Positions 51,177-60,233 of a DNA stretch of 64,000 bases are shown in pieces. A program made the translations under genes and the position numbers. The notes below the pieces were generated by a model. It did not search any database and had not been told where the DNA came from. It was given only the letters and a program-made list of their open reading frames with translations. Each line of letters begins with the position of its first letter. Position 1 is the stretch's first letter. The stretch is from Galbibacter sp. BG1 (GTDB taxonomy: Bacteria > Bacteroidota > Bacteroidia > Flavobacteriales > Flavobacteriaceae). The stretch is taken from assembly GCF_013391805.1 (NCBI RefSeq), contig NZ_CP058364.1, positions 620,501 through 684,500 on the forward strand, written 5' to 3'.

Positions 51177-52919
51177 TTATTTAAAATAGGTCTCTTCACT
51201 TGGCTTAAATCCAATTCTATGAGCCTTAACCACTAATTGCTTATTGGTTTCTATGGAAATAGGTTCTTTATAAATTTGCCAGCCTGGAACCAGCTCTTCT
51301 TTACTATTCACCCATTGAAAACCAATGGAAGCCCCTTCTGTAGCAGAAGACAACACCAGTTTATCCCCTTCTTTTGCAATTATAGGTTTAGCGGTAGTGG
51401 GTTCCTCGAAGTAAGTACCTCTTTTTTCTAGATAATCTTTCTCTGGTATTAATCCCAAATCGTTGGTTTCCGTTATCCATGTATCCATGGCCTGAGAAAG
51501 TTCTTTAATTTTTTCAGCATAGTCTTCCTTATCCGCCAAATTATGGAGTTCATCTGGGTCTTTTAAGGTATCGAACAATTCAATGGAATCTTTTTGTTTA
51601 CGAAACCATTGTGCTTGAAATTTGTTTAATTGCCCTAAGGAATCCAGTCGTAACAGCTCCTGCATAATGGGCATCTGCTCCCTGTAAGACACCGGCAAGT
51701 AGTATGGCTTATTTGGAATGTAGTTTCTAATGAGTTTATAGCGCTTGTCCCGTACAGCACGTATCCTGTCGTGCAATAAGTCAAAACGGTCGGCGGCGGC
51801 AAAAATATAATCCCTTTTATTTTTATCCTCATAGGCACCCATCCAAGCCCGTCCATCACAATATTCGGGAGTGGGCACTCCCGCTAGGGACAAGAGCGTA
51901 GGTTTAAAATCGACAAAGCTTATTAATTGATCGTCTGTTTTACCTGCTAATTGTTTTTTGGGAAACCTCACAATCATAGGTACCTGCAAACCAGAATCGT
52001 ATACTGTACGTTTTTGTCGGGGTAATGGCCCTCCATGGTCGGTGTACCAGAAAATTATGGTATTCTCCAATAAATTTTCGGCTTTCAATTCGTCTAGAAC
52101 TTCCCCTACCTTATCGTCCAGCACTTTAATGTTGGAGTACATTCTTCGTACATCCTTCAAGGCAACCTCGGTAGTTGGCAAATAAGGTTCCACCGGCACT
52201 TCCAAATTCTCATCAATCCATAAAGAATCTTCTGCACGCTTCCATATTTGAGATTCGTGGGTATCGGTAAAATTAAATATGGCAAAGAAAGGTTTGTCTT
52301 TTGGTCTATTCTTCCAATGTGCTTTGTCACTACTTTCGTCCCAAGCGGTCATCTCACATCGGAACTGATAATCTTCTTTTACATTATTGGTACAATAATA
52401 TCCTGCCCTCCTTAAATACTCACTATGCATATGCACTTCAGGAGCCACGTTTGCTTCGTAGGCGGTAACTTCATAATTCTCAATACGCTCATCACTCACA
52501 TCAAAACTAAACCAAGGGCCAGTTCGCATGTGCATGGTACCAGAATGGGTTGGATACATCCCTAAAGCAATTGCGGCACGGCTGGGAGCACAAACACCCG
52601 ATGGAGAATACACATTGGTGTAAGTAACCCCTTCTTTAGCGAGCTTACTTATATTGGGAGTCGTTACGGTGGAATCTCCGTACATGGGTAAATATGGACT
52701 CAAATCTTCTGCTACGATCCAAACTATATTTGGTTTTTCCGGGAGCTCTAAAGTGCTGTATGCCACTTCTTGGACTTCCTCACCACCAAGAACCGAATTA
52801 TTAGATTTAGAGTCTTTTTTTTGGCACGATAAAAAAAGAAAACTTACCAACACAAATGCTAACCTAAAAGGTTTGGTGTTTTTTAAAATATTTTTGGAAA
52901 TAATCATTGCGTTATCCAT
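51177..52919 (-). CDS. Cys-type sulfatase lipoprotein
   Basis: This 580-residue sulfatase of the alkaline phosphatase superfamily hydrolyses a sulfate ester or sulfamate. The lipobox cysteine is Cys32 (SFLFLSCQKK). The metal-binding VWIVAEDLSPYLPMYGD precedes the formylglycine motif CAPSR (Cys110 in YSPSGVCAPSRAAIALGMYPTHSG), so activation by a formylglycine-generating enzyme, not in this window, is needed. The VAEDLSP form is common in heparan N-sulfatase-like members, but the substrate is unknown. Its ATG overlaps the stop of the gene upstream by one base (TAATG). It is the last gene of the operon. Confidence 0.9.
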   Translation of the reverse strand: MDNAMIISKNILKNTKPFRLAFVLVSFLFLSCQKKDSKSNNSVLGGEEVQEVAYSTLELPEKPNIVWIVAEDLSPYLPMYGDSTVTTPNISKLAKEGVTYTNVYSPSGVCAPSRAAIALGMYPTHSGTMHMRTGPWFSFDVSDERIENYEVTAYEANVAPEVHMHSEYLRRAGYYCTNNVKEDYQFRCEMTAWDESSDKAHWKNRPKDKPFFAIFNFTDTHESQIWKRAEDSLWIDENLEVPVEPYLPTTEVALKDVRRMYSNIKVLDDKVGEVLDELKAENLLENTIIFWYTDHGGPLPRQKRTVYDSGLQVPMIVRFPKKQLAGKTDDQLISFVDFKPTLLSLAGVPTPEYCDGRAWMGAYEDKNKRDYIFAAADRFDLLHDRIRAVRDKRYKLIRNYIPNKPYYLPVSYREQMPIMQELLRLDSLGQLNKFQAQWFRKQKDSIELFDTLKDPDELHNLADKEDYAEKIKELSQAMDTWITETNDLGLIPEKDYLEKRGTYFEEPTTAKPIIAKEGDKLVLSSATEGASIGFQWVNSKEELVPGWQIYKEPISIETNKQLVVKAHRIGFKPSEETYFK

Positions 52920-59900: not shown

Positions 59901-60233
59901 ACTCTGGTATGGACTACCACTTTTAAATGCTTTGTTTCCACTCTCCAATTTCCTAAACATGCCTTCCTTTACATCCAACCGTAAACCCGCCTTTCTAGTA
60001 TTTTCGTCTGGGCCGTGGCAATTGAAGCAACGATCGGACAAAATTGGCTTGACATGAAAATTGTAATCAACTTGTTCTGGCAAGTCTTCATAAGCCACTT
60101 GAACCTCTTTAGGTACATCTACAGAGCAAGCCACAAAGTTGACGGAAAGTGCCATTAACAAAATAGCAAATACCAACCTTTTTAAAATTCGAGACCCTAT
60201 GGAAAAATGGAATAGCATATTGTTATAATTCAA
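56919..60233 (-). CDS. PSCyt1-DUF1549-LamG-DUF1553 secreted cytochrome-type protein
   Basis: This 1104-residue protein has an N-terminal hydrophobic signal ending in a lipobox-like VNFVACS. Then come a planctomycete cytochrome c domain with heme motif CFNCH (69-73) and DUF1549 ([31 protein letters not shown]) with a second CxxCH, [11 protein letters not shown] (359-363). A laminin-G/concanavalin-like domain (about 455-690) and DUF1553 ([46 protein letters not shown]) follow. The family is abundant in Planctomycetes and uncharacterised. The LamG domain suggests carbohydrate binding. It is the first gene of the five-gene operon. Confidence 0.9.
   Translation of the reverse strand: [1104 protein letters not shown]

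Follow-up and report, generated by a model that had tools for sequence, protein, structure and literature searches.

The planctomycete-specific cytochrome proteins PSCyt1, PSCyt2, and PSD1 were reportedly described by Studholme et al. in 2004. According to two papers, PSCyt/PSD domains occur in Planctomycetes and freshwater Verrucomicrobia, where redox roles have been suggested for them, sulfatases are found nearby, and the PSCyt2 genes have a conserved neighbor family of unknown function (PMC2754498, PMC5615132). The first of these papers counts 41 copies of each of two PSCyt/PSD domains in Rhodopirellula baltica (PMC2754498). No function for the PSCyt/PSD genes was found in the open-access literature searched. 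Here, an operon carrying these domains in the flavobacterium Galbibacter sp. BG1 was analyzed. The window, which is the whole stretch of DNA examined, covers 64,000 nucleotides (contig NZ_CP058364.1, positions 620,501 to 684,500), and the operon consists of five minus-strand open reading frames (ORFs) at 51177..60233. Genes 1, 2, and 4 of this operon, often with gene 3, recur as a conserved unit in Bacteroidota, Balneolota, and gammaproteobacterial plasmids. In this operon, a known but unexplained family takes a four-gene form that includes a likely membrane partner for electron transfer.

Gene 1 (56919..60233, minus strand, as are all operon features below) encodes a lipoprotein with PSCyt1, DUF1549 (PSCyt2), LamG, and DUF1553 (PSD1) domains. 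Gene 2 (55457..56908) encodes a DUF1501 protein and gene 3 (54337..55395) an NHL-type beta-propeller identified by Pfam, both with a Tat-like signal. Gene 4 (52919..54286) combines a DUF2231 membrane domain, a PSCyt1 c-heme domain, and a tail resembling leucine-rich repeats (LRRs), and gene 5 (51177..52919) is an S1-family sulfatase with a lipoprotein-like signal. The spacings are 10 bp between genes 1 and 2, 61 bp between genes 2 and 3, and 50 bp between genes 3 and 4, and then genes 4 and 5 overlap by 1 bp (TAATG). The preliminary description had claimed this gene order, the TAATG coupling, and the domain make-up of the five genes. The ORFs, the spacing, and Pfam agree with it, apart from the LRR of gene 4: the DUF2231 and cytochrome domains stand, but the LRR scores of 23.3 and 21.8 fall below the gathering score of 27, leaving a weak tail only.

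Of 397 family genomes, 106 have a homolog of gene 1. Sixty family neighborhoods were defined by full-length, LamG-size matches to gene 1, excluding shorter matches of about 790 amino acids. In these loci, tblastn detected gene 2 in 57, gene 4 in 44, gene 3 in 34, and all four genes in 30. Co-directional runs, defined by gaps under 250 bp, had the form g1-g2-g3-g4 in 29 loci, g1-g2-g4 in 13, g1-g2 in 10, and g1-g2-g3 in 5, with g1 alone in 3.

The unit was also approached from gene 4. A profile search of the genome collection returned at least 581 relatives, and the best 80 of these loci were analyzed. They include loci from Zobellia, Maribacter, Arenibacter, Algoriphagus, Echinicola, Spirosoma, Dyadobacter, Lewinella, and Fodinibius, the last a member of the Balneolota. 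Gene 1 was present in 74 of these best 80 (fragments included), gene 2 in 74, both in 73, gene 3 in 45, and all four genes in 42. The count was lower when complete ORFs were considered, with genes 1, 2, and 4 together in 64 of the 80 loci compared to 73 by tblastn. Six gene-4 loci lacked gene 1, and in four of them (L153, L159, L163, and L176), the contig ends no more than 2.8 kb from gene 4. In L139 (Zobellia uliginosa) and L145 (an uncultured flavobacterium), neither gene 1 nor gene 2 was matched within 10 kb on each side of gene 4. In the phylum sample of 296 genomes, 37 contain gene 4 at E 1e-30. A second search of 296 genomes with matching handles detected DUF1553 in 38 at E 1e-20. All 37 lie within the 38, making gene 4 a membrane partner found only where DUF1553 is found in this sample. 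The co-occurrence gave a Fisher P of 2e-46, and 2e-27 when counted by genus, the sole correction for relatedness.

Two large plasmids of one gammaproteobacterium, Catenovulum adriaticum, each carry the module (L222 and L223). On one, gene 4 comes first, followed by the propeller, DUF1553, and DUF1501, and an AraC gene and fucP adjoin the module; on the other, DUF1553-DUF1501-NHL-gene 4 lies beside GH115, GH98, and GH43 genes. Haliscomenobacter has the order gene 4-DUF1501-DUF1553. The sole planctomycete region compared, from a Singulisphaera plasmid, contains PSD1-DUF1501 pairs and no genes 3 or 4 in its listed annotation. The DUF1501 neighbor is shared with that region; in Bacteroidota, the unit also includes a propeller and a DUF2231 membrane cytochrome. 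Neither the four-gene unit nor the fusion described below was found in the open-access literature searched. The preliminary description had called the operon an undescribed system. This holds at most for the four-gene form and the fusion, as the domains themselves are in print in PMC2754498 and PMC5615132. What it had proposed about c-heme motifs, a lectin-type domain, and a likely membrane cytochrome as electron partner is supported for the unit in which genes 1, 2, and 4 are often joined by gene 3.

Conservation of individual residues was examined in alignments whose members were picked with a length filter and an 88% identity filter, to a maximum of 60; alignment A2 omitted two of its 47 picks (L207 and L215). 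The cytochrome-type domains of gene 1 scored above the Pfam cut-offs, with 64.9 bits for PSCyt1, 278.1 for PSCyt2 (DUF1549), and 334.5 for PSD1 (DUF1553), and Pfam also matched Laminin_G_3. The first CxxCH motif of gene 1, CFNCH (residues 69-73; 60015..60029), lies in PSCyt1, and the second, CAKCH (residues 359-363; 59145..59159), lies in DUF1549. C69, C72, and H73, as well as C359, C362, and H363, are invariant in 46 aligned sequences. Of 118 distinct gene-1 homologs, 116 retain both motifs, and the motif of gene 4, CVSCH (residues 183-187; 53726..53740), occurs once per protein in 113 of 113 homologs. The three motifs, already listed in the preliminary description, are therefore not due to chance. 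Met126, His156, and His365 of gene 1 are also invariant across the 46 sequences and are candidate axial heme ligands. In gene 4, the DUF2231 domain (Pfam residues 13-132; 53891..54250) has four hydrophobic segments. Its His14, His19, His81, and His126, together with His133 just past the domain, are invariant in 61 sequences, and all five are also kept in the six fusions described below, in Catenovulum, and in Haliscomenobacter. In the open-access literature searched, two papers mention DUF2231 or PF09990, and judged by title, neither deals with its function.

Gene 1 has all three domains of the PSCyt1/PSCyt2/PSD1 proteins, and its LamG domain is of a kind listed for them in PMC2754498 and PMC5615132. 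This LamG (concanavalin-A-like) domain (residues 513-690; 58164..58697) was identified by Pfam. A Foldseek search with the AlphaFold2 (AF2) model of gene 1 (pLDDT 85.5, pTM 0.86) listed 50 matches, which are lectin-type jelly-roll folds aligned over about 200-310 columns, as expected because of the LamG domain. They include receptor-binding domains of clostridial neurotoxins, a common shared fold that is uninformative on toxicity. A PDB sequence search with gene 1 gave no match. A lipobox-like pattern, by a crude definition, is present in 72 of the 118 homologs. The in-frame ATG at 60218 is probably a likelier start for gene 1 than the TTG at 60233. Two homologs, G377:C7:1141808-1145041 and G356:C36:60036-63359, each contain one in-frame stop within the aligned stretch.

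The strongest evidence that genes 1 and 4 act together comes from natural fusions. In both phylum searches, eight places share gene-4 and DUF1553 matches in one open frame. Five of the eight were fetched along with a place in genome G032 that was flagged by DUF1553 alone. All six, which are from Bacteroidota, are single ORFs of 789-972 amino acids with DUF2231, PSCyt1, DUF1549, and DUF1553, all over the Pfam cut-offs (L227:8345-10714, L228:3110-5581, L229:6299-8746, L230:4754-7579, L231:5127-8045, and L232:3429-6272). Each has two CxxCH motifs and one detected PSCyt1, located between the two halves, and a divergent DUF1501 gene adjoins the fusion in six of six (by BLAST; in two of them also by Pfam). 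The fusions suggest that PSCyt1 links the DUF1549 heme to the membrane and argue that electrons pass directly between genes 1 and 4, and they also suggest an order for the electron path. A different arrangement was found on a plasmid of Saccharobesus litoralis (L226:9863-15812), where a DUF1549/DUF1553 gene without PSCyt1 is followed by DUF1501, a hypothetical gene, and genes for cytochrome c' and cytochrome b561. This single locus hints that the cytochrome c' and b561 pair, which likewise comes after DUF1549/DUF1553 and DUF1501, stands in for gene 4.

On balance, we consider it probable that genes 1-4 form one exported redox module to which gene 5 was added, and that electrons pass from a carbohydrate-acting heme protein to the membrane. 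In such a mechanism, gene 1, as a lipoprotein with two c-hemes and a lectin-like LamG domain, would bind a carbohydrate, which its DUF1549/DUF1553 core would oxidize. The electrons would then travel from the DUF1549 heme to the PSCyt1 heme of gene 1 and on to gene 4, whose own PSCyt1 heme and histidine-rich four-helix membrane domain would pass them to the quinone pool. Genes 2 and 3 would be exported partner subunits acting on or holding the substrate. Whereas the gene content and order, the conserved motifs, the co-occurrence, the fusions, and the fold relation of DUF1501 were observed, we infer heme binding, complex formation, sugar oxidation, the direction of electron flow, quinone as the acceptor, and the nature of the substrate. 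More tentatively, the module might be an undescribed membrane-linked carbohydrate oxidoreductase with a di-heme catalytic DUF1549/DUF1553 core, connected by PSCyt1 to a quinone-reactive DUF2231 membrane subunit, and a sulfatase-fold DUF1501 partner. If so, this would assign a function to many planctomycete-cytochrome and DUF1501 genes in Planctomycetota, Verrucomicrobiota, and Bacteroidota. PSCyt/PSD genes are numerous, and the Bacteroidota form makes the question of their function testable through its membrane partner, gene 4, and through the natural fusions. Because some genomes, including that of the window, have a single DUF1553 match while planctomycetes have dozens, a clean deletion experiment is possible.

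The neighbors of other copies agree with an oxidative use of carbohydrates. AraC regulators, Gfo/Idh/MocA oxidoreductases, an FMN dehydrogenase, SusD, and a hybrid two-component sensor are found near them, and GH88 is among the carbohydrate genes there, beside the fucP, GH115, GH98, and GH43 genes already mentioned. MFS, SDR, amidohydrolase, and zinc dehydrogenase genes are also found near other copies and could form an L-fucose route. Near the fused forms are a glucose/sorbosone dehydrogenase-cytochrome (L229), a 3-keto-disaccharide hydrolase domain (L230), and a sulfatase (L231). The first two are reminiscent of periplasmic 3-keto-glycoside pathways, but neither is in the window operon. In the window itself, no SusC/SusD pair or glycoside hydrolase was found among ORFs of at least 100 amino acids from 46 to 64 kb, with the flanks judged by eye. 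The earlier statement that the operon is not a polysaccharide utilization locus, as it has no SusC/SusD, applies to the window locus only, since SusD, TonB receptors, or glycoside hydrolases are found in the vicinity of some other copies.

Several observations weigh against the proposal of an exported redox module passing electrons to the membrane. Gene 3 is missing from 26 and gene 4 from 16 of the 60 family loci by tblastn, and therefore neither is obligatory. A search of the open-access literature turned up no biochemistry for any component of the module. Among the 50 Foldseek matches listed for gene 1, none was usable for the helical core. At E 0.001, Pfam did not match DUF2231 in the gene-4 proteins of Catenovulum pCadTS8_2 and Haliscomenobacter, although their histidines align. 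The replacement of gene 4 in Saccharobesus is weakened by a 362-bp gap before the cytochrome pair. The sugar-gene neighborhoods are a listing of what was observed, and the comparison to control loci covers the sulfatases considered below. The loci L036, L039, and L042, which are among those nearest to the window, have relA-, fur-, and purA-like genes upstream (by eye) and an OstA-like gene after the module (Pfam), and they give no hint of a substrate because these neighbors look like housekeeping genes. Lastly, hydropathy with a simple topology places all five conserved histidines of gene 4 on one membrane face, that of the c-heme.

The last two observations each bear on a different explanation of the locus. 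Because all five histidines are on one face, a classical trans-membrane di-heme cytochrome b is not indicated for DUF2231. In contrast to the cytochrome b561 type, DUF2231 also has no b561 Pfam match, and a two-heme b561-like protein is not supported by the position of the histidines. They would better suit one site at the outer face, for a heme, a metal, or a quinone. The same one-sided arrangement would fit a flow in the opposite direction, in which quinol supplies electrons to gene 4 for transfer to gene 1, and gene 1 would then act on a carbohydrate as a reductase, a peroxidase, or an oxygen-activating enzyme. Membrane-anchored c-heme proteins are able to run either way. In addition, a gene of a MauG-type cluster directly follows gene 4 in four of the 60 loci (L074, at 13364-14542, L079, L086, and L090; Pfam was run on L074 only). 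However, the Gfo/Idh/MocA, FMN, and glucose/sorbosone dehydrogenases near other copies speak against such a reversal, and the 3-keto-disaccharide hydrolase neighbor suggests an oxidized product. We regard reversed flow as unlikely.

Another possible explanation is that the operon is a respiratory or envelope device, for example for redox protection or metal handling, with no role in carbohydrate use and with LamG and the propeller serving as protein contacts. The housekeeping-like flanks of L036, L039, and L042 and the lack of glycoside hydrolases or SusC/SusD around the window locus would be expected in that case. However, carbohydrate contexts occur in several distant lineages, and the patchy spread, with gene 1 in a minority of the family genomes and in neither of the two genus mates within the family sample, is unlike that of housekeeping genes. 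These findings make an envelope device quite improbable compared to an exported redox module acting on carbohydrate.

Gene 5 is, by its sequence, an ordinary S1 sulfatase. Pfam detected a Sulfatase domain (125.9 bits) and SGSH_C, and the C-x-P-x-R formylglycine motif, CAPSR (residues 110-114; 52578..52592), has C110, P112, and R114 invariant across 16 aligned sulfatases, so that the earlier assignment as a Cys-type sulfatase was confirmed. The PDB search places its nearest solved relatives in S1_8. Its top five PDB matches are S1_8A-C, the first with an E of 1e-70, which makes S1_8 a candidate subfamily for gene 5. The S1_8A/B/C enzymes are lambda-carrageenan 2-O-sulfatases according to PMC12549532. 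Gene 5 resembles them in these matches and in C-x-P-x-R and is perhaps a sugar 2-O-sulfatase, but unlike them, its locus shows no other carrageenan enzyme.

The preliminary description had gone further and treated the sulfatase as an integral part of a five-part system acting on a sulfated polymer, in which it would be essential and co-evolved. Synteny and a control with shifted loci did not bear this out. No ortholog of gene 5 was found by tblastn in the 60 family loci, where the best local identity was 38%. The eight nearest homologs of gene 5 share 50-60% identity with it; none is next to a listed gene-1 match, and five are in genomes without a gene-1 match. For the control, 40 of the 60 loci were chosen by hand and compared to positions displaced by about 60-100 kb along each contig, using 17 query sulfatases; distant sulfatases were possibly missed in both sets. 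A sulfatase was near the module in 9 of 40 loci and in 8 of 40 controls (P = 1), and in 7 of 19 compared to 6 of 19 for the subset L068-L091 and its controls. For the Verrucomicrobia, PMC5615132 notes that sulfatase genes are frequently near PSCyt genes, in some of these bacteria, whereas the flavobacteria here have no excess over background. Since there is no ortholog in the 60 loci, no enrichment, and the nearest homologs are away from the module, gene 5 is best read as a local addition, joined to the operon's end in this lineage and outside the conserved unit. The five-gene system as a conserved unit was rejected.

Some observations speak against a local addition and would fit a five-part system. 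The overlap of genes 4 and 5 implies coupled translation here. In Flagellimonas algicola (L141:8245-9519), genes 3 and 4 are separated by sulfatase-like pieces that share 27 and 36% local identity with gene 5, matches resembling gene 5 occur in 7 of the 80 gene-4 loci, and sulfatase-like genes are near two of the six fused loci (L230 and L231). In four of the 60 family loci, the module run includes a sulfatase of cluster c4, and L087 alone repeats the order g1-g2-g3-g4-sulfatase, with 35% local identity to gene 5. The host genome also carries FGE-type genes. Weighed against the missing ortholog and the lack of enrichment, these findings leave a system with an essential sulfatase highly improbable.

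Gene 2 has a second, more distant connection to sulfatases. A DUF1501 profile built from 52 sequences was compared to the S1 sulfatase profile with hhalign and gave a probability of 91% and an E of 1e-6 over the C-terminal part, compared to 0.2% and 1.2% for the controls. The AF2 model of DUF1501 (pLDDT 81.9) was searched with Foldseek, and the 50 matches listed are, leaving 8yk5 aside, sulfatases, alkaline phosphatases, LtaS, and relatives, with a best E of 3e-6. The superposition is loose, with TM scores by query of 0.26-0.37 and root mean square deviations of 9-22 A. A PDB sequence search with gene 2 returned nothing convincing. These comparisons suggest that DUF1501 is likely a member of the alkaline phosphatase/sulfatase superfamily. 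A classical sulfatase was rejected since the CxPxR motif is absent from all 126 DUF1501 homologs. The Tat signals claimed earlier for genes 2 and 3 were confirmed by an RRx-hydrophobic pattern within the first 45 residues in 120 of 126 gene-2 homologs and 72 of 73 gene-3 homologs.

The entire operon occupies the interval between purK and purE (51137..60404, no strand assigned), a setting absent from the preliminary description. purK was found in seven of the seven genus genomes searched. In four of the six others, purE directly follows purK with no operon between them. In G398 and G400 (L219 and L220), other genes come after purK, purE is outside the stretch fetched, and genes 1-5 have no match within that stretch, so that the junction is different in these two as well. 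The operon is, therefore, patchy even inside the genus. The host genome is a single contig of 3.71 Mb with one DUF1549 match, 25 sulfatase matches across about 23 open frames, and a gene for a cytochrome c assembly protein.

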